Origin: Verrucomicrobiota bacterium
Lineage (GTDB): Bacteria > Verrucomicrobiota > Verrucomicrobiia > Chthoniobacterales > UBA6821
Reading direction: 5' to 3'
NCBI GenBank assembly: GCA_021413925.1
Contig: JAIOPL010000004.1
Span: 62,001-126,000, forward strand
Length of the DNA stretch: 64,000 nt
Part shown: piece by piece, positions 45,668 through 62,257 of the stretch
How the letters are laid out: each line of letters opens with the position of its first letter
How positions within the stretch are numbered: position 1 is the first letter of the stretch
Notes under the pieces: model-generated
The model's database searches: none
What the model was told of the DNA's origin: nothing
Seen by the model: the letters and a program-made list of their open reading frames with translations, nothing else
Made by a program: the position numbers and the translations under genes

Positions 45668-45701
45668 GACCCCGTAGTTCAACGGATAGAATAGGAGTTT
45701 C
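45668..45701 (+). other. Left attachment site: 5' half of tRNA-Arg(CCU)
   Basis: These 34 bases repeat 53575-53608 with one difference (T at 45687, A at 53594). They contain the acceptor 5' strand, D arm and anticodon 5' strand of the tRNA but stop inside the anticodon loop, after which the sequence is unrelated. This is the host's original 5' half, separated from its 3' half by the element. Confidence 0.88.
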
Positions 45702-45754
45702 TATTTAGGGTAGTGTAAATGTCCATTCTACAGAGTAAATGAACCAAATGGAAC

Positions 45755-45783
45755 TTGACCGAATCAGTCTGATCCCTTATGTT
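45755..45783 (+). promoter_or_regulatory. Promoter-like site and 19-bp terminal repeat at the integrase start
   Basis: TTGACC (45755-45760), a 17-base spacer and TATGTT (45778-45783). The -10 overlaps a 19-base sequence, CCCTTATGTTTTCCCTTAT (45774-45792), that is repeated exactly at 53506-53524 near the other end. It may be the integrase promoter, an integrase arm site, or both. Confidence 0.45.
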
Positions 45784-45790
45784 TTCCCTT

Positions 45791-47020
45791 ATGCCCTCCG
45801 TATGGATCAACCCCGCCAATAGCCGTTTCTATGCTTGCGAATATATAGACGCTCACGGAAAGAGGGCAATCCGCTCAACTAAACAGCTCAATAAAAAAGA
45901 CGCCTTAAGGGTTGCGAATGAGTGGGAGGAGTTCGCCGCCGCCGCTAGGTCAGGGGAGGCGACCCGTCATCAAGCCGAGGCCGTGGTCAACCGATCTCTT
46001 GAGATTGCCGGAATGGGGAAGCTGAAGAGATTTACTATCGAGGAGGCTTTCAAGAATTGGATCTTGGAAAACTCGAAACATTGGTCATCTGCAACCCTTG
46101 TGAAATACAAGAAGGCATCTTCTAGTTTTTTGGAGTTTTTCCCGCCGGAGCGAATCAAGGAGCAGTTGCGAACGATCACGAAAAAGGATGTGGAGGCATG
46201 GCACGACAACGAGCTTGCCGAGGGAAAAGGCAAATCTACGGCCGGGACATACTTGAACATCCTTCGCTCCGCCTTCGCTTGGATGGTGAACGAGGATTAC
46301 ATTGCCGAGAATCAACCGAAAAAAGTCACGCTCCGGGGGGCAAGCATATCGGAATCAAGGGAAGCTTTTTCCGACGATGAGGCCCGAGCGATCCTTTCGG
46401 TTTGCACGAGGGATTGGCGGGGAGCCGCACTCTTTTCCTCATGGCACTCCATCCGCCTTGGGGATGTGGCAAGGCTCAAATGGGGCAACCTCGATCTCGA
46501 AAGGGGCTTTATTAAATACCTCCCTTCCAAGACCCGAAACCTCGATCAAGACCCGCGCCTTTTGGTCATGGCTCAAGACATCCTCCGATGGCTCAAGGAT
46601 CAAGAGCAGGGAAAGCCGACTGACCCCTTGTTCCCTACGCTTTGCAGTCGCGTCTCGGGAGGACATCAAGGGCTCTCCAACGAGTTTGGCCGGATCATGG
46701 CAAAGGCGGGGATTGTGATTCCGCTCGGGCGCGAGAAAAAGGGGAAGGGCCGCCAGTTCCGCAAGAAAAGCTTTCACTCCTTCAAGCATCTATCTCACAC
46801 GAGAATGCTAGAGGCAGACATTGGCGCGGAGCAAAGGCGACTAATGGGGGGGCACTCGTTAACCTCGACGGCGCATCTTTCCTATCTGCATATGCGGCCA
46901 GAATCTCAAACGGCCGCCCTTGCCAAGATCCCGAGCCTTATGGATTCAATGCCGGAGCCCGCGCCGGAGCCCGTCTCCGAGAAGAAACGCCCCGCCCGCC
47001 GCAAGGTTCAAGCTGGTTAA
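45791..47020 (+). CDS. int: Tyrosine recombinase / phage-type integrase
   Basis: The 409-residue integrase starts at ATG 45791 (MPSVWINPANSRFYACEYID); ATG 45779 is an alternative but overlaps the putative -10. It has an N-terminal arm-binding region, a core-binding SAM-like domain (about 80-180; FTIEEAFKNWILENSKHWSS) and the catalytic domain: Arg222 (HSIRLGDVARLKW), Lys247 (PSKTRN), His329 (FHSFKHLSHT), His355 (MGGHS) and nucleophile Tyr365 (LSYLHM). The second Arg of the HxxR box is Lys332 here. Its stop overlaps the convergent repressor stop by 4 bases. It recombines the tRNA att sites. Confidence 0.93.
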   Translation: MPSVWINPANSRFYACEYIDAHGKRAIRSTKQLNKKDALRVANEWEEFAAAARSGEATRHQAEAVVNRSLEIAGMGKLKRFTIEEAFKNWILENSKHWSSATLVKYKKASSSFLEFFPPERIKEQLRTITKKDVEAWHDNELAEGKGKSTAGTYLNILRSAFAWMVNEDYIAENQPKKVTLRGASISESREAFSDDEARAILSVCTRDWRGAALFSSWHSIRLGDVARLKWGNLDLERGFIKYLPSKTRNLDQDPRLLVMAQDILRWLKDQEQGKPTDPLFPTLCSRVSGGHQGLSNEFGRIMAKAGIVIPLGREKKGKGRQFRKKSFHSFKHLSHTRMLEADIGAEQRRLMGGHSLTSTAHLSYLHMRPESQTAALAKIPSLMDSMPEPAPEPVSEKKRPARRKVQAG

Positions 47021-47853
47021 TCCAAGCCCACGTCGAGCCTTACGGATTTGGCCCCGCCTTTGATTTCCTTCAAAACTCGATCCGCCTCGTTACTATTGCC
47101 GAGTCCTTTAAAGTAAAACTTCTCCATAGTGATCTCGTGCCAGATTCCATCTTTCGCCTGAATCCGCCAGATTGAGCGAATAGATTCTGTCGAGTCAGTA
47201 GTGTGACCAAACTTGATTGCCACCCTTTCGGCAAGGGCTCCCCAGTTCCTAAAGCTCTCAACCATTGTTTTAATTGGCCCCTTGGCGGGAAGTTGATTCC
47301 GCAAATGTTGATAGTCGGGCGAATCTCCGATGAGTTCGTCGAGCTGGCTCCGTGTTACTATCCCATCATTTATTTCAGCACCCTTCCGCGCCTGTGAATC
47401 AATATCGGAGAAAGTCACTTTCGCTTCCTCTCTCACCTCCTCAATCGCGCCGCATAGACGATGGAACATCCGGCGCAAATCTCCGTTGCCGCGCGCGGCC
47501 GCCGCATCAAGGAGGAGTTGGCAACGCAAGGCAACTTCCTCTTTTTGAGAGATCCTATCCTCTTCGGAAACTGATTGTTTGATCCAAGCCTCAAATCCCG
47601 CGGGATCAAGTTTCTTGCCGTTCATCATAATCAAGGGCTTGTCGCCCCGCATCAATGATTCAGAAGAAACGCCCGTTGCCGCCTGTATGCGGCGCGAGAG
47701 TTGAAGGTCAAAGCCGCCCTTGCTTCGGCCGTGTTCAATGTTGGCGACTTGGTGGCGTGGAATACCGATTAAATCGGCAAAGGCGGTTTCGGTCATTTGC
47801 CCGAGAGCAAATCTCAAGCGGTAGAGGGGATGATCAGATTGCGTGGTTTTCAT
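47017..47853 (-). CDS. Phage-type repressor with N-terminal helix-turn-helix (XRE family)
   Basis: The 278-residue protein starts at ATG 47853 (MKTTQSDHPLYRLRFALGQM). The Cro/C1-type HTH is TETAFADLIGIPRHQVANIE at about residues 20-40. The rest is charged and mainly helical (EDRISQKEEVALRCQLLL and further), with no LexA-type peptidase motif, so cleavage by RecA is not supported. It faces the excisionase-like genes across a region with two palindromes, the standard position for the master repressor of the element. Confidence 0.85.
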   Translation of the reverse strand: MKTTQSDHPLYRLRFALGQMTETAFADLIGIPRHQVANIEHGRSKGGFDLQLSRRIQAATGVSSESLMRGDKPLIMMNGKKLDPAGFEAWIKQSVSEEDRISQKEEVALRCQLLLDAAAARGNGDLRRMFHRLCGAIEEVREEAKVTFSDIDSQARKGAEINDGIVTRSQLDELIGDSPDYQHLRNQLPAKGPIKTMVESFRNWGALAERVAIKFGHTTDSTESIRSIWRIQAKDGIWHEITMEKFYFKGLGNSNEADRVLKEIKGGAKSVRLDVGLD

Positions 47854-47857
47854 GTGC

Positions 47858-47913
47858 TGTATGTAAATACACAAAGCAACAAAAGCAACAACAAATGGTT
47901 GTGTATAATACAC
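47858..47913. promoter_or_regulatory. Operator region between repressor and excisionase-like gene
   Basis: Palindrome 1 is TGTAT-GTAA-ATACA (47858-47871). Palindrome 2 is GTGTAT-A-ATACAC (47901-47913). Both share the GTAT/ATAC core, so one protein could bind both. Palindrome 2 contains TATAAT (47904-47909), a perfect -10 for rightward transcription, so binding would block it; palindrome 1 lies just upstream of the repressor start, suggesting autoregulation. Confidence 0.6.
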
Positions 47914-47956
47914 GCTAAAGGGTACAAATTGGAAATCAGACGAACCAAATTGACCC

Positions 47957-48214
47957 ATGCCACACAATCCTAACCCAAAATACACCACCGCCGCCGTCAA
48001 GGCCGCCAGCATCACCGATCCCGAGTTTATCGAGATCCCATCCATGAAGCCGATGTTCGCAATCGGCCGAACCGCGACTTTTGAGTTGATCAAGAGCAAG
48101 CGTATCCGCTCCGTCAATCTTCGACGTGAGGGGAAGAGCAAGGGCCGCCGACTGATCGAAGTCGCAAGCGTGAGGCAATACCTCGCCCGCCTCATGAACG
48201 AGGGGGGCATCTAA
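47957..48214 (+). CDS. Excisionase-like small DNA-binding protein, 85 aa
   Basis: The protein has a winged-helix/MerR-like pattern: KPMFAIGRTATFELIKSKRI, then RSVNLRREGKSKGRRLIEVA with SVRQYLARL, as in AlpA/Xis proteins that bend DNA for excision. Its length and position (first gene right of the operator region, divergent from the repressor) fit a directionality factor. It ends in NEGGI, followed by a C-rich, non-coding 70 bases. Confidence 0.75.
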   Translation: MPHNPNPKYTTAAVKAASITDPEFIEIPSMKPMFAIGRTATFELIKSKRIRSVNLRREGKSKGRRLIEVASVRQYLARLMNEGGI

Positions 48215-48286
48215 TAACCCCCCCCCTCCTCCGTAACAAATTTCCTCCGGCACTTCCGCTGGGGAATAACCAAAAACACCGACGCC

Positions 48287-48802
48287 ATGACAACGAAAAC
48301 CAAGACACCAAAAAAGCTAGAGTTCCAGCCCTTCACTTGCTGTATCTGCGAGCGGGATATCAAAGGACAAATGGGGAACAATCCCGATCCACTCAACACA
48401 ATGCCCGAAGCTACTTGTTGCGAGCAATGCAACGATTTTGTGGAGGAAGCCCGCGACCATCAAGGCGCACTCATTGCGGCCGCCAAAGCTGTCGTCGAAA
48501 TCTTGAAACCGAAATCCAAGAGGACGTATGAGCCGACCAAGAGGGATATCGCCCGTGGATCTATGATCGTTAATGAAGGCTTGGCTTTTAGGGCATGGGT
48601 TCAGGAGGCAGTCAAGAATCACGAACTTAAGAAATCCAAGACTGCGATTCACAACGGAAAAAAATCAATCCCTGCATTCTTAATCGGGCAATCTGATCGC
48701 CAAGCGCGCCCTTGCTCCCGGTCATTATTGGCCGAGGGCGAGGGCTTCAGTTTGACAAAGGCAACAACTCTATGCAGATCCAACCCGATACAACGTCCCT
48801 AG
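48287..48802 (+). CDS. Small Cys-rich phage-type protein, 171 aa
   Basis: I recognise only a pattern. The N-terminal part has FTCCICERDIKGQMGNNPDP and TCCEQCNDFVEEAR, two CxxC pairs around a GNNPxPL stretch, as seen in small zinc-ribbon proteins of phages. The middle (KAVVEILKPKSKRTYEPT) is basic, and the C-terminus is low in conservation. Its 3' end overlaps the next gene by 31 bases in another frame, so the last residues may not matter. Metal binding is inferred; the role is unknown. Confidence 0.6.
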   Translation: MTTKTKTPKKLEFQPFTCCICERDIKGQMGNNPDPLNTMPEATCCEQCNDFVEEARDHQGALIAAAKAVVEILKPKSKRTYEPTKRDIARGSMIVNEGLAFRAWVQEAVKNHELKKSKTAIHNGKKSIPAFLIGQSDRQARPCSRSLLAEGEGFSLTKATTLCRSNPIQRP

Positions 48803-48948
48803 TGTTTAAGCCTTCCGAGGCCGCCCATCTCATACGGGTTCACCGATGCACCATTTACGGAATGATCAAGCGGGGCTCCCTCCCGGCAATCCGTGTCGGA
48901 AAAACACTCAGAATCCGTAAAGAGGATTTACAAGCCTTTCTTTCCTAA
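48772..48948 (+). CDS. Excisionase-family helix-turn-helix protein, 58 aa
   Basis: From ATG 48772 the product reads MQIQPDTTSLVFKPSEAAHL, then IRVHRCTIYGMIKRGSLPAI, RVGKTLRIRKEDLQAFLS. This is the HTH_17/excisionase fold (PSEAAxLxxVxxxTIYxxIKxGxLPAxRVGxxxRI). A stronger match than the 85-residue gene, it could be the true directionality factor or a regulator of the replication gene. It ends just before the hairpin at 48972. Confidence 0.85.
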   Translation: MQIQPDTTSLVFKPSEAAHLIRVHRCTIYGMIKRGSLPAIRVGKTLRIRKEDLQAFLS

Positions 48949-48971
48949 CTCGGAGAGATCCACAAACGCGA

Positions 48972-49004
48972 AAAGGCGGCCACCCAGCAAGAGAGGCCGC
49001 CTTT
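48972..49004 (+). terminator. 10-bp perfect hairpin between the excisionase-like and replication genes
   Basis: AAAGGCGGCC (48972-48981) pairs with GGCCGCCTTT (48995-49004) around a 13-base loop. It is two bases before the possible GTG start of the replication gene. It could end upstream transcription or hide the start region. Confidence 0.5.
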
Positions 49005-49005
49005 C

Positions 49006-50604
49006 GTGAAAACCAGACATATGCCACAGCAAGTCAAACCCCACAGCATCAGCTTCACCCGTCCGGGCCTCACGATGATGCCATTGCAAGCCCCGGCCAA
49101 GGAACGATCTTTACCCGCCGCCCTAGACTCAGAAAAGGGCCTTCTCTCTAGCGTTCTACTCTCTCCCGCTTGTCTGGACTCCCTCGAGGGGATCACTCCA
49201 AACGATTTCCACCATCCTGCACACGGGACGATCTTCTCGACCATGCTCAGGATGAAGAGGGACGGGAAGCCTATCGAGCTAACTCCCTTAACTCAGGAAA
49301 TCACGGATCAGGGGCAACTCGAGAATGTCGGCGGGGCATTCTATATTACAGGACTTCAGACCTTCATTCCCACAGCGACGAACGTTTCTTATTTTGCCGA
49401 GAAGGTAAGGGAAAAGTCGCGACTCAGGGAGGTGATAGCGGTTGCCGAGCGCAGCATCTCCGCCGCATATGCTGGCGACTATCCACAAGGACAGATTGCC
49501 GAACTGGCAAAGATTACAGCGGATAAGGAACTCCGTAATTCGGGACTTACCTTCCGAAGTGTTTCCGAGATCCTAAAAATGACCTTCAACGATGCCGACT
49601 TGTATCTAGGCAACGGCTATCTCCAAAAAGGGGGATCTCTTGCGATCATGGGATCAGGCGGAATCGGAAAAAGCCGCCTTGTCATGCAGTTGGCGATTTG
49701 CTCCGCCTCGGGGCTTCCTTTCCTTGGATGGCCGACACAAGGCAATCCGAAATGGCTTTTCCTTCAGACTGAGAATGGAAACCGCCGCCTTCACCATGAC
49801 CTCGCCAAGATGACAAAGACCCTCGGGCCGGATGAAATCGCATTCCTTGACGGAAAGATCGTCTTTCACACCCTGGAGAACTCCCACGATGTTCTGATGC
49901 GTCCGTCGAGTGATAAGGCACACAACCGAATTGCCGACGCAATCGAGCAGCATAACCCGGATGTCGTTGTGTTTGATGTTCTCCGTGATTTTGCAATAGG
50001 GGACTTGAACAGCGACGATGGGATGAGCCAAACCCTCGACGCTATCGGCCAACTTGCCCGTCATGGCCGTTCTGATCGTTCCGTCGTCGTCGTCCACCAT
50101 GCCAGAACTGGTAAGGTTGCCGCCGCTGGGGCTTTCGGTTTGGATCGCGCCAACTTTGGAAGAAACAGCAAGGTTCTCCTTGGATGGGCTCGGGCCGTTC
50201 TCAATATCGCTCCGCTGAGTGAAGATGACCCGGAACTGATCGGGCTCGCCTCGGGCAAGAATAACGATTTCCGAGAGATTGAGCCGATGGCACTCCGACT
50301 AAAGGCGGATCATATGCTTTACGTTCCCGACAAGAGCGTTGATGTCGCCGCCAAGATTGCCGGACTGAGCGAAACGGGAAAGAAGGTTTCCAGCGTCACT
50401 ACCTCCGCCGTTGTCGAGATTGTTGAAGCACTTCACCCGAACGGAATCTCCAAGACGGAATTGGCCGGAAAGGTAATGGAAAAAGGGTGTGGAAGATCAA
50501 AAGCCTATGACCTGATTGCCGCCGCTGAAGCTCAGAAACAGATCAGATTCTCAGGAAAACACAGAGGTTTTGTGTCCGCACAGAAAACGGCACTTATTCA
50601 ATAG
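49006..50604 (+). CDS. Replication protein: DnaB-N domain plus RepA-like AAA ATPase
   Basis: The 532-residue protein starts at GTG 49006; ATG 49021 is an alternative. The N-terminal part (about 40-150) is DnaB-N-like: ALDSEKGLLSSVLLSPACLD, GGAFYITGLQTFIPTATNVS. The second domain (about 200-400) is a RecA-fold AAA_25/RepA ATPase with Walker A GSGGIGKSRLVMQL, Walker B VVVFDVLRDFAIGDLNSDDG and RSVVVVHHARTG. The C-terminal part has a winged-helix-like segment (NGISKTELAGKVMEKGCGRS). It probably opens the element's origin or acts as its helicase. Iteron-like repeats lie immediately downstream. Confidence 0.87.
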   Translation: MKTRHMPQQVKPHSISFTRPGLTMMPLQAPAKERSLPAALDSEKGLLSSVLLSPACLDSLEGITPNDFHHPAHGTIFSTMLRMKRDGKPIELTPLTQEITDQGQLENVGGAFYITGLQTFIPTATNVSYFAEKVREKSRLREVIAVAERSISAAYAGDYPQGQIAELAKITADKELRNSGLTFRSVSEILKMTFNDADLYLGNGYLQKGGSLAIMGSGGIGKSRLVMQLAICSASGLPFLGWPTQGNPKWLFLQTENGNRRLHHDLAKMTKTLGPDEIAFLDGKIVFHTLENSHDVLMRPSSDKAHNRIADAIEQHNPDVVVFDVLRDFAIGDLNSDDGMSQTLDAIGQLARHGRSDRSVVVVHHARTGKVAAAGAFGLDRANFGRNSKVLLGWARAVLNIAPLSEDDPELIGLASGKNNDFREIEPMALRLKADHMLYVPDKSVDVAAKIAGLSETGKKVSSVTTSAVVEIVEALHPNGISKTELAGKVMEKGCGRSKAYDLIAAAEAQKQIRFSGKHRGFVSAQKTALIQ

Positions 50605-50642
50605 ATGAAAGACTTCAGAAATCATCCTTTTTACTCTGTTCC

Positions 50643-50733
50643 GTCCGTGGATTGTCCGCGGATTGTCCGTGGAAAAAGGGGTCATTTGTCCGCGTCCGCG
50701 CTTCCCTATAGGGGGAGCGGACGGACGGACAAC
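50643..50733. repeat. Iteron-like GTCCGTGGATT repeats with GC-rich inverted repeat
   Basis: Three tandem 11-base units (GTCCGTGGATT, GTCCGCGGATT, GTCCGTGGAAA) lie at 50643-50675. A related TTGTCCGCGTCCGCG at 50687 faces GCGGACGGACGGACAA at 50716-50731, forming an imperfect hairpin around TATA. The position, 38 bases after the replication gene, fits an iteron-type origin. Confidence 0.65.
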
Positions 50734-50802
50734 CCCCAGCGGATACTAGGTAAGGAGTTCTCGACGATCATTAGGGTTTGAAAGCCAGCAAGACCACCCC
50801 TC

Positions 50803-51003
50803 GTGGTTCCAGTTATCTTAAACGCATCAGCACTCCGAGGTTGGGCGTACTGGCCTTCATTCTTTATGGGTTTCCTTAATGATAATAGTTTCCTAACAAG
50901 TAGGAGGGAGATCGCAGAAGCTAAAAAACAATTGGATCAAAATGAGCTAGTTGTTTCACCAGCGAGCACCGCTGAGATCGTCGCCAACTATTTGACCCAG
51001 TAA
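50803..51003 (+). CDS. Possible small protein, 66 aa
   Basis: An open frame from GTG 50803; ATG 50866 gives 45 residues (MGFLNDNSFLTSRREIAEAK). The second half looks protein-like (EAKKQLDQNELVVSPASTAE), and it ends 29 bases before the next gene. No motif and no ribosome binding site are seen. It may be real but is uncertain. Confidence 0.3.
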   Translation: MVPVILNASALRGWAYWPSFFMGFLNDNSFLTSRREIAEAKKQLDQNELVVSPASTAEIVANYLTQ

Positions 51004-51032
51004 CTACCCACACCCCCCTATCTACTTTTTCC

Positions 51033-51428
51033 ATGCCCAGAAAATCCAACCCCAAAAAGCTAGCCTTGCAAAAATACAGCGGGCTTAGTCGCCAAGCTGT
51101 CCACAAGCGTTTCAAGTTAGGAATCGGCACGACTGCTTTTCACGATCATCTGTGCCGAAAGATGCGGGCCTGTGCCGACATTGCCGAGCATAAGGCCGCT
51201 TCGCTAAAGATCGAAGTCGCAAGACTGAAAGACTCGATCACCACCCGTGAGGAAGTCGCCCGTGATGCTCAGGCTGTGGCGACGATATGGATTGAGGAGA
51301 TTAACCGCATGAGGGAGGAAGCCGTTGCGCAGCTGGTCAACTTGGATGAGGTGGGAGTGAGAGCCTCACTCGATAGCCTTACGGATCAGATGATGGATCG
51401 GATCATGGATCGCATGGAGAGGCTTTAA
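51033..51428 (+). CDS. Small-terminase-like DNA-binding protein, 131 aa
   Basis: The N-terminus is a helix-turn-helix (LALQKYSGLSRQAVHKRFKL) after a basic start (MPRKSNPKK). A long helix follows (KAASLKIEVARLKDSITTRE). The end, EEVARDAQAVATIWIEEINR with QLVNLDEVGVRASLDSLTDQ, resembles the Nu1/small terminase C-terminal pattern. Terminase assignment is tentative; it could be a general phage regulator. If right, it would suit a satellite that redirects helper packaging. Confidence 0.6.
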   Translation: MPRKSNPKKLALQKYSGLSRQAVHKRFKLGIGTTAFHDHLCRKMRACADIAEHKAASLKIEVARLKDSITTREEVARDAQAVATIWIEEINRMREEAVAQLVNLDEVGVRASLDSLTDQMMDRIMDRMERL

Positions 51429-51511
51429 GCAGGCCGGGGAACTCACGCACTCCTTCAGGGCAAGCTCTACAATCTCCAGAAGAAGAAGGTGGGTGGAAGA
51501 GATGATAGGAA

Positions 51512-51542
51512 TTTTGGGGTGGCAACTTCTACCACCCCAAAA
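51512..51542. repeat. 11-bp perfect inverted repeat in the element
   Basis: TTTTGGGGTGG (51512-51522) and CCACCCCAAAA (51532-51542) flank a 9-base loop. The gap around it (51429-51702) has no convincing gene. The flanking A/T runs would make the hairpin usable as a terminator in either direction, or it may be a protein-binding site. Confidence 0.6.
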
Positions 51543-51702
51543 ACATCCGCGCAGATCGCAGCTCAGACCGCCATTTCAGGCTTCCCAGAAAGGCCCTCAG
51601 AATACTGGTTGCCACGGCGGGGCATGATGACCCTCGAACGAAATAAAACCGACCTATGCGCAATCCTCAGCCCCGCGCAGATTGACACACGGCGCGTGAA
51701 GC

Positions 51703-52332
51703 ATGGAATCCTTTCACGCATACGAAAACGATACGAGCATTGCAGCCTTCAACTTCGATTATGACGAGATCGACCGACATCTGCTTGAGGAGTTCGACCC
51801 AGCAACCCCTGAGACTGAGGGACTAAAGCGGGACTGGAAGCGCGAGGGGAGATCATCCGCATCATCGGATCTTCTCAAGCAAACGCTTGAAAGCTTGTTG
51901 CCCGTGGCCTTAAGCGGTTCAACAGCTCAGTCCCTTGGCTTGAGATGCGTCTGCTTACTATGGATGTTGCAATCAGAAAGGCATGATCTGGGGAGCCGCC
52001 CGCTTTCCGAGATTGCAAAGCAGCTAAAAGTTAGCCGGGCGATCCTTAGCTTTCATGTCAGATCCTTGGAGGAGCTGCTTGGTTTTTTTCATGCTAGGGG
52101 ACAGAAGGCAGTTCAAGCCCGTGAGAGCTATAAAGAAAGTGTGAAGGCCGGTTGGGAGACGCGCCGCGCCGTTCATGGAGGCACAGGCAGGAAACCAGCT
52201 TTGCATCCTGATAAAAACTTGAGGCGAAAGGCCGTCAGACAGGCCGAAAATTTGACTCATCCGCCAAGGAATGCGCCTCACGACTCCCACCATGACAATC
52301 AGCAATATCCCGAAAATCTCGCTGGAAATTAA
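51703..52332 (+). CDS. Putative DNA-binding protein with winged or sigma-4-like HTH, 209 aa
   Basis: I do not recognise the family. The N-terminal third is acidic (FNFDYDEIDRHLLEEFDPAT). The centre carries LSEIAKQLKVSRAILSFHVR, which fits a helix-turn-helix, preceded by GLRCVCLLWMLQSERHDLGS. The C-terminal third is basic and His-rich (NLRRKAVRQAENLTHPPRNA). It starts at ATG 51703, after a gap that holds a perfect hairpin. It may regulate late genes of the element or bind its DNA. Confidence 0.65.
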   Translation: MESFHAYENDTSIAAFNFDYDEIDRHLLEEFDPATPETEGLKRDWKREGRSSASSDLLKQTLESLLPVALSGSTAQSLGLRCVCLLWMLQSERHDLGSRPLSEIAKQLKVSRAILSFHVRSLEELLGFFHARGQKAVQARESYKESVKAGWETRRAVHGGTGRKPALHPDKNLRRKAVRQAENLTHPPRNAPHDSHHDNQQYPENLAGN

Positions 52333-52417
52333 AGGCCCTCCGGGGACTCAGAATCTCCCAACCGATAAGCCAACCCCCGCACCAGCTCCAACCCCAGCCC
52401 CGAAATCTAATGAGTAA
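52292..52417 (+). CDS. Possible 41-aa Pro/Ala-rich protein overlapping both neighbours
   Basis: ATG 52292 opens a 41-codon frame (MTISNIPKISLEIKGPPGTQ, ending PAPAPTPAPKSNE). It overlaps the previous gene by 41 bases and the next start by 8 (ATGAGTAA), the sort of tight overlap used for translational coupling. No homology is recognised. Confidence 0.4.
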   Translation: MTISNIPKISLEIKGPPGTQNLPTDKPTPAPAPTPAPKSNE

Positions 52418-52742
52418 GCTCACCACACCATCAACAGAACAGACTAAGCTCACCGCGCAAGTCGCCGCTAGCAAAGTTAAACTTCAAGCTCTCCGCCGCG
52501 AGGAGCAGCAGTTGAAGGCAGAGTATGTTCGCAAGGATCTTCGGATCAAAACCCTGCATTCTGAAATCAATGCGATTTTGAAGAGTAGTGGAATGCTCGC
52601 CTCAGACATTGCCCCCAGCGGAAAACGCTTCAATGCTGCCGCCGCATATGTCGAGGCAGTCGAGACCGGCAACAAGAAGCTCGCCGCGGAACTTTTCAAG
52701 AATCACAAGAGCGAAATCTTCGCCCTAGCCCGTAAGGAGTAA
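52410..52742 (+). CDS. Coiled-coil small protein, 110 aa
   Basis: The product is hydrophilic and helical. Residues 12-60 (VAASKVKLQALRREEQQLKA and on) have a heptad-like pattern, predicted coiled coil. The C-terminal part (RFNAAAAYVEAVETGNKKLA) looks like a short helical hairpin. It has no known motif. It starts in the stop region of the small Pro/Ala-rich frame, and the next gene follows 21 bases after its stop. Confidence 0.65.
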   Translation: MSKLTTPSTEQTKLTAQVAASKVKLQALRREEQQLKAEYVRKDLRIKTLHSEINAILKSSGMLASDIAPSGKRFNAAAAYVEAVETGNKKLAAELFKNHKSEIFALARKE

Positions 52743-52763
52743 TCACAAAACCAAACCAAAACT

Positions 52764-53246
52764 ATGACCACCAAAGCCCCAGCCCTCCCGAAGAACATTG
52801 CCGCCCTAGTAAAGCGGGAATCAGAACTCCAAGCCCAAGTTGATAAATGGAGCCAAGCAGCGTTTAGAGAGGAGAGAGACAGGCTCACCGCCGTAGTCCA
52901 CTCCGGCAGCGCGACCGATGAAGAGATCGCCCTTCATGCAGACTTCCGAGATGGCGGAAAAATTAACGGGGACTTCTCCGCAATGGAGGCCAGCTGTTCC
53001 GCCGCACTCGACGCATTCCGTAGAGCCAACTGGGAGGAGTTTCGCCAGCACCTCATTAATCGCCTAGCCCTCAGGGTTCAGCGTGAGGCCGACTATGTTT
53101 TAGAGTTGGCACAGGTAGCCACCAAGTACGGAATTGAGATCCAGCACTCGGACGATCAGTCAAGCACGACACGCCAGCTTGAGGATCTTTGCAGCCGCGA
53201 GGATGGAGGCTTCATCAGTTTTCTATCAGCAACGGAAACTTTTTAG
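52764..53246 (+). CDS. Hypothetical element protein, 160 aa
   Basis: The acidic-to-neutral, mostly helical protein begins MTTKAPALPKNIAALVKRES. Helices include ESELQAQVDKWSQAAFREER and WEEFRQHLINRLALRVQREA. There is no motif I can name. It is the last gene of the element and is followed by a terminator 67 bases on. The name of the 110-residue neighbour cannot be transferred; the two do not look alike. Confidence 0.65.
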   Translation: MTTKAPALPKNIAALVKRESELQAQVDKWSQAAFREERDRLTAVVHSGSATDEEIALHADFRDGGKINGDFSAMEASCSAALDAFRRANWEEFRQHLINRLALRVQREADYVLELAQVATKYGIEIQHSDDQSSTTRQLEDLCSREDGGFISFLSATETF

Positions 53247-53313
53247 TGGGTTAGTTGATTGGCTTTCTCTTCGGCCCGCCGTGTGGCGGTGTCCGAACTC
53301 ATAGGCTGCAAGC

Positions 53314-53339
53314 CCTCGCCGTAACTGGCGGGGGTTTTC
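53314..53339 (+). terminator. Rho-independent terminator at the element's right end
   Basis: CCCTCGCC pairs with GGCGGGGG (8 bp, one T-G wobble) around a 6-base loop, then TTTTC. It ends the rightward gene run of the element. Confidence 0.75.
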
Positions 53340-53487
53340 AGTTTTCAAAAAAATCAATCTCGACTCTGTAGGGAATCAACTTTGATTCTCCATGAAACAC
53401 AAGGAGGCCCGAGCAATCCGCCCCTCACTATTCCTCGATGCTTTCCTTTTTTGATTCTCCGTCTATCATCAACCCCGATGGATTATC

Positions 53488-53524
53488 TTGAACGGAATAG
53501 AACGCCCCTTATGTTTTCCCTTAT
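53488..53524 (+). promoter_or_regulatory. Promoter-like site for the rebuilt tRNA plus 19-bp terminal repeat
   Basis: TTGAAC (53488-53493), 16-base spacer, TATGTT (53510-53515), about 60 bases before the tRNA. The -10 lies in CCCTTATGTTTTCCCTTAT (53506-53524), the exact repeat of 45774-45792. The element may carry a promoter that drives the tRNA it disrupts. Confidence 0.45.
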
Positions 53525-53574
53525 AAATGGGAAAAACTAGGATTCCTCTTTCTGTAAGTAGTTCATAATCAACT

Positions 53575-53646
53575 GACCCCGTAGTTCAACGGAAAGAATA
53601 GGAGTTTCCTAAACTCTAGATGGTGGTTCGATTCCACCCGGGGTCA
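53575..53646 (+). tRNA. tRNA-Arg(CCU), rebuilt by the integrated element
   Basis: The 72 bases fold fully: acceptor GACCCCG/CGGGGTC with discriminator A, D stem GTTC/GAAT, anticodon stem GGAGT/ACTCT with loop TTCCTAA (anticodon CCT, decodes AGG), and T arm GGTGG-TTCGATT-CCACC. CCA is not encoded. Bases 53575-53608 duplicate the left att site, with one D-loop change (GGAAAG here, GGATAG in the left copy), so this 5' half came from the element and the 3' half is host. Confidence 0.93.
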
Positions 53647-53658
53647 GTTTTCTTCATG

Positions 53659-60523: not shown

Positions 60524-62257
60524 GTGAGAATTCCCAATTTCAGGCATTTCGTATCGAAGCTCGCGGGAATGCGTCGGTTCCCCCTGCCGATCCTGGCGGC
60601 ACTGATCGCCACCGCCGCATATATTGTTTCCATCCATTCCTCGTGGACCCCGACCGACGAACAATGCATCAGGATTTCCCTCACGATGCTCTTTGGCCTC
60701 CCTCTTCTCGTCGGCGCGGTCTATGGATCGGAACTCCATCCTCGATTTCAACCGATCCTGCATCCGGCCGCGCTGATCGCCATGACGGGTCTCTTTTTCC
60801 TTGTTCCCGTGGGCATTATTCACACTGGAACGGTGTGGTTTTGCTTCTGGATGCTGGTGCTGATGGCGTTTGCCCTGGCCAGCGTGGTGCCCGGCCTTGT
60901 ACGCGATGGAAGTCTCAATTGGTGGAGGGTGAATGTCGGTTGGCTGAACGCCCTCGTACTTGCCGCGATTATGACGGCGATTGTGGAAATCGGCCTTCAA
61001 CTGGCCTTCTTGAGCGTGAAGATACTCTTTGGATTGGAAGCCCATTTCTTTTTTGTGCGGTGTCTGCACTTCGATCTCCTTGCCCTTGCAGGATGCCTAA
61101 TCTACCCCGTCACTGCCCTGGCTCTGTTTCCGTCCGCCAAGGATGACCTCTATCCCGACCAGCCTGGGTTCAAGGTCTGGTCCAATCTCTGCAAGTGGGC
61201 GCTGATCCCGATCGGTTTCCTCTTCATGGGAATCCTTGCCGCTTATGCCGTGAAGATCATCATCCAGTGGAAGCTTCCAAACGGCATGGTGGCGACTCCG
61301 GTGCTCTCCCTTGGGGCGTATGGAACGCTGGCCATGCTCCTGATCCTCCCGTGGAAGGGGGAGCGTTCCTGGGCCCGATGGTTCTCGTTGATCTATCCAC
61401 CGGCCTTCCTGCTCAGCAGCGCCCTCCTCTTCATCTCCCTCGCGCTCCGCATCAAGGAGTACGGCGTGACCTTCGACCGATATTCCGCATTGGCCGCAGG
61501 CATCTGGCTGACTGTATCGGCATTCTGTTTTCTGATTCGCCGTAACCAAGCACCTCTCTTGGTTCCCTTCCTGCTTGCCCTCACCACGTTGGTTGCCGTC
61601 CTGGGGCCGCTGAGCGCGGGCACCTTGTCGCGGCGCAGTCAGTCCGAACGACTCAAGCACCTTCTCGAATCCTCAAACCGCAAGGATGAGCAGATCCGTT
61701 CCATTGTCACAATGATCGTTCAGGATTTCGGGTTGACGGACCTTGAGAAGGTGACCGGACCGCTCGGTATCGATCCCAAGCTTGCTTACTGGGAACTGTC
61801 CAGGGCGGTGCTTCAGAAGCTCCATCTATCCAAGGATCCTACCCAATGCAGCTATGGACTTAGCGAAGGATCCATCGTTCCGATTGCCGGATGCACCGCC
61901 TATCTGCAGGCCCGCAACGGTGGATGGAAAGGAACTCTTGGTACGAATGCCGCCGGGGAGGAGTTGATGCTGAAGAACACATTCACGGGCAGCGGTGACC
62001 TTGACCTGAGGCTGGTGCTCCAAGCTGGGGGAAGGGAGGTGGCATCGAAACGAATCGCTGACCTTGATTTTGATGCAGCGATTAAAAACAAGACGCCCAT
62101 TCTCTTCACTCTCGGAGGAGAGGGGAGGTGCTTCCAGATCGTGATCACGTATGCCCAATGGGATTCCTCGGCCACCCCTAGAAAGGTGGTTAGCATCGAA
62201 TATCAGGTTTTTGAAAAACAGTGCGATCCGGAAAATAATCCATCCCCCGCACCTTAG
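60524..62257 (+). CDS. DUF4153-domain membrane protein
   Basis: The 577-residue protein has about ten transmembrane helices in residues 20-365 (for example LFGLPLLVGAVYGSEL, ALVLAAIMTAIVEIGLQLAF). ISLALRIKEYGVTFDRYSAL with GIWLTVSAFCFLIRRNQ is the DUF4153 signature. The C-terminal 200 residues are soluble. GTG 60524 is listed; ATG 60569 (MRRFPLPILAALIA) fits a membrane start equally well. Function is unknown. Confidence 0.84.
   Translation: MRIPNFRHFVSKLAGMRRFPLPILAALIATAAYIVSIHSSWTPTDEQCIRISLTMLFGLPLLVGAVYGSELHPRFQPILHPAALIAMTGLFFLVPVGIIHTGTVWFCFWMLVLMAFALASVVPGLVRDGSLNWWRVNVGWLNALVLAAIMTAIVEIGLQLAFLSVKILFGLEAHFFFVRCLHFDLLALAGCLIYPVTALALFPSAKDDLYPDQPGFKVWSNLCKWALIPIGFLFMGILAAYAVKIIIQWKLPNGMVATPVLSLGAYGTLAMLLILPWKGERSWARWFSLIYPPAFLLSSALLFISLALRIKEYGVTFDRYSALAAGIWLTVSAFCFLIRRNQAPLLVPFLLALTTLVAVLGPLSAGTLSRRSQSERLKHLLESSNRKDEQIRSIVTMIVQDFGLTDLEKVTGPLGIDPKLAYWELSRAVLQKLHLSKDPTQCSYGLSEGSIVPIAGCTAYLQARNGGWKGTLGTNAAGEELMLKNTFTGSGDLDLRLVLQAGGREVASKRIADLDFDAAIKNKTPILFTLGGEGRCFQIVITYAQWDSSATPRKVVSIEYQVFEKQCDPENNPSPAP

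Follow-up and report, generated by a model that had tools for sequence, protein, structure and literature searches.

A mobile element in tRNA-Arg(CCU)

Here, we examined a stretch of 64,000 nucleotides (nt) of DNA (the window; positions 62,001 to 126,000 of contig JAIOPL010000004.1, assembly GCA_021413925.1) from a freshwater verrucomicrobial bacterium, in which a 7.9-kb mobile element bounded by 34-nt repeats interrupts tRNA-Arg(CCU). The element lies on contig C4 of a host genome of 2.4 Mb that is 96% complete; stranded features are on the plus strand unless stated otherwise. For a gene flanking the element, the relatives that bear a name come mostly from Spartobacteria/Chthoniobacterales MAGs. 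The repeats (45668–45701 and 53575–53608) are identical at 33 of 34 positions, and the intact tRNA-Arg(CCU) at 53574–53647, which constitutes the right attachment site (attR), is the sole tRNA within the window. The left copy (attL, 45668–45701) is exactly the 5′ half of this tRNA in congeners G010, G013 and G016, whereas the right copy has one mismatch; therefore, the left copy is the displaced original 5′ half and the right one was carried in by the element. When the element is excised in silico, the joined flanks align with G016 and G013 through the junction without interruption (2.5 kb each, 73%); G010 aligns with the right flank as far as the tRNA (90%). Comparison of these sequences thus shows integration within the anticodon loop of tRNA-Arg(CCU), with the element bringing its own tRNA 5′ half. 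An earlier note on this DNA had delimited the same unit by its tRNA repeats, which the near-identity of the repeats and the empty sites in congeners bear out; the empty sites also contradict the contrary possibility raised there, namely, that all relatives carry the same genes at this site without att repeats.

The left half of the element encodes functions for integration, regulation and replication. A tyrosine integrase of 413 amino acids (aa) (45779–47020; PF00589, 4e-8; phrog_1, 6e-38) is followed by a divergent gene for a helix-turn-helix (HTH) regulator of 278 aa (47017–47853, minus strand), a probable repressor given its matches to the transcriptional repressors phrog_8 and phrog_2328. 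Two related palindromes, GTGTATaATACAC and TGTATgtaaATACA, occupy the region between the repressor gene and the next open reading frame (ORF), o3 (47854–47956), and presumably serve as operators, in line with the earlier assignment. Then come o3 itself (85 aa, 47957–48214), which has homologs at the same position in the G014 and G143 elements; o4 (171 aa, 48287–48802), which lacks a useful family match; and a gene for an excisionase/AlpA-like HTH protein of 58 aa (48772–48948; TIGR01764, 5e-14; PF12728, 1e-12). Of the two excisionase-like genes claimed previously, this last one is well supported, whereas o3 shows only a weak HTH_17-like match (0.084). The replicative helicase (526 aa, 49024–50604) is a fusion of a DnaB N domain (PF00772, 7e-21) with a RepA-type AAA_25 ATPase (PF13481, 2e-24), so that the int, repressor and ATPase genes recognised in the earlier note are all matched by families. 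Its N domain is 47% identical to that of the host's own DnaB and may recruit the host primase. Directly 3′ of the helicase gene (~50640–50735), a cluster of GTCCG and CGGAC words around CCCTATAGGG corresponds to the iterons noted before and represents a candidate origin.

Sister elements with exchanged modules

A search with the 209-aa ORF of the right half (o209, 51703–52332), which encodes an HTH protein common to the sister elements, revealed a second copy, 88% identical, on contig C19 of this genome. The C19 unit spans 7.6 kb and is bounded by 38-nt repeats of tRNA-Leu(UAA), which once more involve the 5′ half. It contains genes for an integrase, a divergent regulator, a DnaB-N/RepA helicase and a small terminase (TerS), as well as the 209-aa gene, a gene of 145 aa and a homolog (56% identity) of o160, a 160-aa ORF of the window element (52764–53246). 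The integrases, regulators, helicases and TerS of the two units yield no meaningful pairwise BLAST alignment. Given that the gene order matches but these proteins cannot be aligned, the two units represent the same plan with exchanged modules.

Further elements of this kind were found in other genomes of the Chthoniobacterales. The G413 element contains int, helicase and TerS genes and an o209 homolog between att repeats at tRNA-Arg(CCU); the G010 element, bounded by a 43-nt 5′-half repeat of tRNA-Arg(UCU), contains int, a divergent HTH gene, an AlpA-like gene, a primase gene, an HNH gene and the conserved site described below; and the G369 element, at tRNA-Phe, contains int, helicase and TerS genes and an o160-like gene that is weakly related to o160 of the window. 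Thus, the search for the same int-repressor-ATPase order in related genomes, recommended in the earlier note, recovered sisters, and the description of a compact, satellite-like integrative element stands. In the 3 units examined (window, C19 and G413), repeats lie 3′ of the helicase gene, each with its own words (GTCCG, CCTCA and CGAAC, respectively), as expected if every helicase has its own origin.

A cos-like site shared with phages

In the interval separating the helicase gene from terS, a 23-mer plus GGTTGGGCGyAC is common to the window element and C19, and GGGAAGGAATCTTTT-N17-GCGGTTG is found in both C19 and G413; the candidate cohesive-end site (cos) is GGGAAGGAATCTTTT-N17-GCGGTTGGGCGCAC. 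A scan of IMG/VR with the C19/G413 pattern recovered a phage contig, L148, with the site immediately 5′ of terS-terL. Relaxing the pattern yielded 13 phage contigs, L148 included, with terS just downstream of the site in all 13 and terL next in 11, the sequence slices of the other 2 stopping within terS. These phages possess gpA-type terminases and a portal of the lambda family. In lambda, cos lies immediately upstream of terS-terL. Because gpA-type phages with a lambda-family portal keep cos there, we read the conserved site, which in the window element occupies 50773–50882 and is common to C19, as cos-like.

We trained a site model solely on the 13 phage sequences and ran it over the fetched loci and the window. 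The 4 top matches were all in the elements that we interpret as satellites: C19 (7e-13), G010 (7e-12), G413 (5e-5) and the window element (6.7e-5, 50828–50882), with the next match at 0.02. The seed pattern was derived from C19 and G413, and these are hence not independent of the model, whereas the window sequence was not used. Alternatively, the conserved site could serve the terS region as a promoter or in replication or regulation. Consistent with this possibility, the window copy of the putative cos overlaps a terminator-like hairpin. However, in gpA-type phages, the site lies just 5′ of terS-terL, that is, in the position of lambda cos; it is retained in the G010 element, which has an HNH gene but no terS; and the origin-like repeats are separate from it. 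This alternative therefore appears unlikely. The shared 23-mer was also considered as an RNA element and rejected, as it folds no better than shuffles and has no Rfam match; its matches in G135, G397 and G425 are taken as chance.

A small terminase and a probable scaffold segment related to those of phages

The gene downstream of the site (o131, 131 aa, 51033–51428) aligns without gaps over its full length to the TerS of phage L163 (L163:4904-5299; 37% identity over 131 aa, 3e-29) and is 33% identical to that of L168. Both phage genes are directly 3′ of the conserved site and, in L163, TerL follows; the L163 protein matches phrog_57, terminase small subunit (0.003). Other searches were less informative: the best family match of o131 was Terminase_3 at 0.036, which is not useful; no relative was found among 213 genomes of the order; tblastn of o131 and the G413 TerS against annotated phages gave no match; and hhalign of o131 against five TerS-like proteins returned a probability of 8%. 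The identity of o131 was settled by the phage TerS relatives found after the hhalign result. Given that the AlphaFold models of o131 and o209 are of low confidence and Foldseek returned no significant match, this identity rests on sequence and position, by which the ORF is a phage small terminase.

The next gene, o209, has a relative in phage L148 (29% identity). Single-protein scans of IMG/VR and of the genome contigs with the ATPase and o209 gave no matches. In phages, the o209 relative is an early-region gene, whereas in the window element o209 sits between TerS and the scaffold segment. The ratio of non-synonymous to synonymous substitution rates (dN/dS) between the window and C19 copies, from the same genome, is 0.16 over 175 codons; this value and the ungapped, full-length TerS are both consistent with selection.

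Downstream, an ORF of 110 aa (52410–52742) aligns with the last ~100 residues of a phage protein of 390–402 aa (42–43% identity to the C-termini of L163:2-1207 and L166:1959-3128, ~1e-13). The parent protein itself has no family match; it is preceded by the portal and followed by a weak major-head-protein match (phrog_283, 7e-4; 3e-22 for a prophage protein at the corresponding position in G056). Lambda-type head operons carry a protease/scaffold gene between the portal and capsid genes. Given this arrangement and its position, the parent protein is most readily interpreted as a scaffold and the window ORF as its C-terminal segment. A 48-aa ORF (52271–52417) that matches the linker of the phage scaffold protein (36.7 bits, compared to 21.4 for the best of 500 shuffles) precedes it in a different frame, the two ORFs overlapping as ATGAGTAA; this arrangement could reflect either translational coupling or an old frameshift. 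The SaPI1 protein CpmB has its C-terminus in common with the scaffold of its helper, occupies the same binding site on the capsid protein and alters capsid size (PMC6893505). By analogy, the window segment may play a CpmB-like role. Past the scaffold segment and o160, a terminator-like hairpin, recognised by consensus match only, follows the last gene (53310–53337).

Family and phage-protein profile searches found no relatives of TerL, portal, capsid or tail proteins in the element. Hence, the previous conclusion that it lacks structural genes holds for these but has to be amended for the small terminase and the scaffold-derived ORF. Likewise, part of what had appeared as a set of unknown small genes, namely, the region of the cos-like site, TerS and the scaffold segment, can now be tied to lambda-type phages.

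A probable phage satellite and the alternatives

Taken together, the clean att sites, the empty site, the recurrence of the plan with exchanged modules in C19, G413, G010 and G369, the site model, and the homology of TerS and the scaffold segment suggest that the element is, in all likelihood, a phage satellite that works in the manner of phage-inducible chromosomal islands (PICIs) and would depend on a gpA-type cos phage for its packaging. In the proposed mechanism, a helper phage would relieve repression of the element, Xis and Int would excise it as a circle, and the DnaB-N/RepA helicase would replicate the circle from the iterons, perhaps drawing in the host primase. The satellite TerS, jointly with the helper TerL, would then cut at cos and fill capsids of the helper with the satellite DNA. 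The scaffold segment would probably compete with the helper scaffold, favouring a smaller capsid as SaPI1 CpmB does, or else might disturb helper assembly in another way.

Several observations weigh against this interpretation. Excision, induction and packaging are all inferred from the sequence. The window match to the site model is partial, spanning model positions 53–107, and the out-of-frame linker piece that precedes the scaffold segment could mean decay. The site-bearing phages are known from contigs of uncultivated phages, none with a host label, and no resident helper was seen, a gpA-type TerL being absent from the 96% complete host genome. When phrog_2 was used there to detect a helper, the matches were all weak and of a generic ATPase-like kind. 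Genes for gpA-type TerL are present, however, in congeners G013 and G009 and in several other genomes of the order, so that an infecting phage, or else a prophage carried by other strains, probably acts as helper. The C19 unit was considered as a resident helper prophage and rejected, being a second satellite.

The element could instead be a defective prophage of the lambda type, from which TerL, the tail and most head genes have disappeared and in which cos, TerS and the scaffold gene's end persist together with int and the replication genes. Consistent with such decay, cos, TerS and the scaffold are arranged in phage order, and the scaffold piece is the 3′ end of the gene only, with the linker in a different frame; among the remains of structural genes, nothing beyond this scaffold end was detected. 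The earlier note had named structural genes on close relatives as a sign of a defective prophage; none were found in the close sisters, whereas a more loosely related unit, G011:C36, retains a phage tape-measure-like gene. Against decay, several genomes show this reduced plan although their int, regulator, helicase and TerS are unrelated, o209 is out of its phage position, TerS remains ungapped and full length at 37% identity, and o209 is under purifying selection. Because the same outcome would have to be reached repeatedly with different modules, a defective prophage is improbable. Less probable still is an integrative plasmid-like element without a phage stage that moves by uptake, vesicles or conjugative help, its phage-like parts being incidental. 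The RepA-type helicase with iterons fits this possibility, as does the finding that the closest helicase relatives reside in islands linked to tRNA genes, some of which carry restriction cargo and lack genes for phage heads. It is at odds with the presence of a cos-like site, TerS and a scaffold segment within a single 8-kb unit, and no relaxase or transfer gene was recognised in the element by family searches.

Relationship to known satellites

Among the known systems closest to the element are the PICIs, which include the Staphylococcus aureus pathogenicity islands (SaPIs) and are delineated by an integrase/regulator/replication organisation, the absence of structural and lytic genes, prophage-free att sites, a size of ~12–15 kb, orthology and helper induction (PMC6092414). 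The window element resembles them in int, divergent regulation, its own replication genes, att sites, the lack of structural and lysis genes, and terS and/or cos (PMC6092414). Indeed, it shows the integrase, master regulator and replication module, and lacks structural and lytic genes except for the scaffold segment and TerS; its att site, tRNA-Arg(CCU), also holds the G413 sister and an untyped int element in G015. By contrast, it spans 7.9 kb (7.6 kb in the case of C19) instead of 12–15 kb, has a DnaB-N/RepA helicase, uses a tRNA 5′ half and comes from a different phylum (PMC6092414). No family match points to PICIs, with no search aimed directly at PICI genes having been made. Because the size falls short and orthology lacks support, the element is best placed in a new, PICI-like family of satellites and not among the PICIs themselves.

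The scaffold segment resembles SaPI1 CpmB in being a short satellite protein that shares the C-terminus of a helper scaffold; it differs in that a CpmA partner is not recognised in the element and its homologs belong to lambda-type phages of uncultivated bacteria (PMC6893505). The phage-inducible chromosomal minimalist islands (PICMIs) of Vibrionaceae are likewise small and carry int, an AlpA-like gene and a replication gene, the last encoding a DUF3987/DUF5906 primase, but insert next to fis and lack a capsid-remodelling gene (PMC10803314). The window element instead possesses a RepA helicase with the AAA_25 domain, a tRNA site, TerS and the scaffold segment (PMC10803314), and thus falls outside this group. 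Nor is it a capsid-forming PICI (cfPICI), having no capsid genes of its own. The P4 alpha primase and signature capsid and late genes are absent among the family matches, with no dedicated P4 search having been made.

In the open literature searched, no phage satellite is described for Verrucomicrobiota. With somewhat less assurance than for the satellite nature of the element itself, we propose a separate satellite lineage in Verrucomicrobiota (Chthoniobacterales), the members of which would have derived cos, TerS and a coat-binding scaffold end from lambda-type helpers, would be packaged in small capsids of their own, and would combine exchangeable int, regulator, replicase and TerS modules with frequent use of tRNA 5′ halves. 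A family that accommodates the helper-type cos site, TerS and the scaffold end within 7–8 kb offers a compact test case for studying how phage parts are assembled into satellites and how a scaffold fragment might control capsid size, and the phage-derived site model provides a direct route to more satellites, and to their pairing with helpers, in metagenomes.

Insertion sites and related islands

Inside the ends of the element, a perfect 19-nt direct repeat (45774–45792 and 53506–53524) represents candidate arm sites of the integrase; the C19 and G413 elements likewise have internal end repeats. The tDNA islands catalogued by Islander similarly divide tRNA genes at the anticodon loop and themselves supply one half of the restored gene, but displaced 5′ fragments are rare among them (159 of 3919), in contrast to the 5′ half used in the window, C19 and G010 elements (PMC4383910). 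The G413 sister interrupts tRNA-Arg(CCU) via the 3′ half and, in G015, the same tRNA is split by different DNA with a long ORF (424 aa), the start of which is similar to integrases of related islands; hence, tRNA-Arg(CCU) is an integration hotspot. This integrase-like ORF of G015 (G015:C120, L027) comes from the closest relative.

In the window (45668–45857), the displaced tRNA 5′ half retains the host promoter side and faces int, 78 bp downstream. In ICEKp1, the tRNA promoter drives int while the element is integrated (PMC13023037); by analogy, transcription of the host tRNA could drive int of the integrated window element. PADLOC gave no more than two matches, which were weak (0.005–0.006) and are taken as chance.

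The looser relative G011:C36 (L110, 5671–13808) is an integrative unit with int, a divergent HTH gene, primase and HNH genes and the o209 gene. Its tape-measure-like gene (544 aa) matches a prophage protein of congener G013 at 4e-85, and no capsid, portal or TerL gene was recognised; the unit is either a satellite that carries a tail gene or a prophage that has suffered deletions. Helicases related to that of the window element are also found in very small tRNA-adjacent units that consist of int and a DnaB-N/RepA helicase, with no att repeat found (L087, 1500–6426, and L089, 952–5042), and in integrase-bearing islands beside restriction-like or other cargo genes (L091, 1389–16000, and L086, 1–12876). 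Finally, in congener G014 (G014:C60, L079, 3125–7889), an element combines the DnaB N domain with another helicase/primase-like module in one protein, and a terminase-small-subunit match (phrog_51, 6e-13) follows at the contig end.

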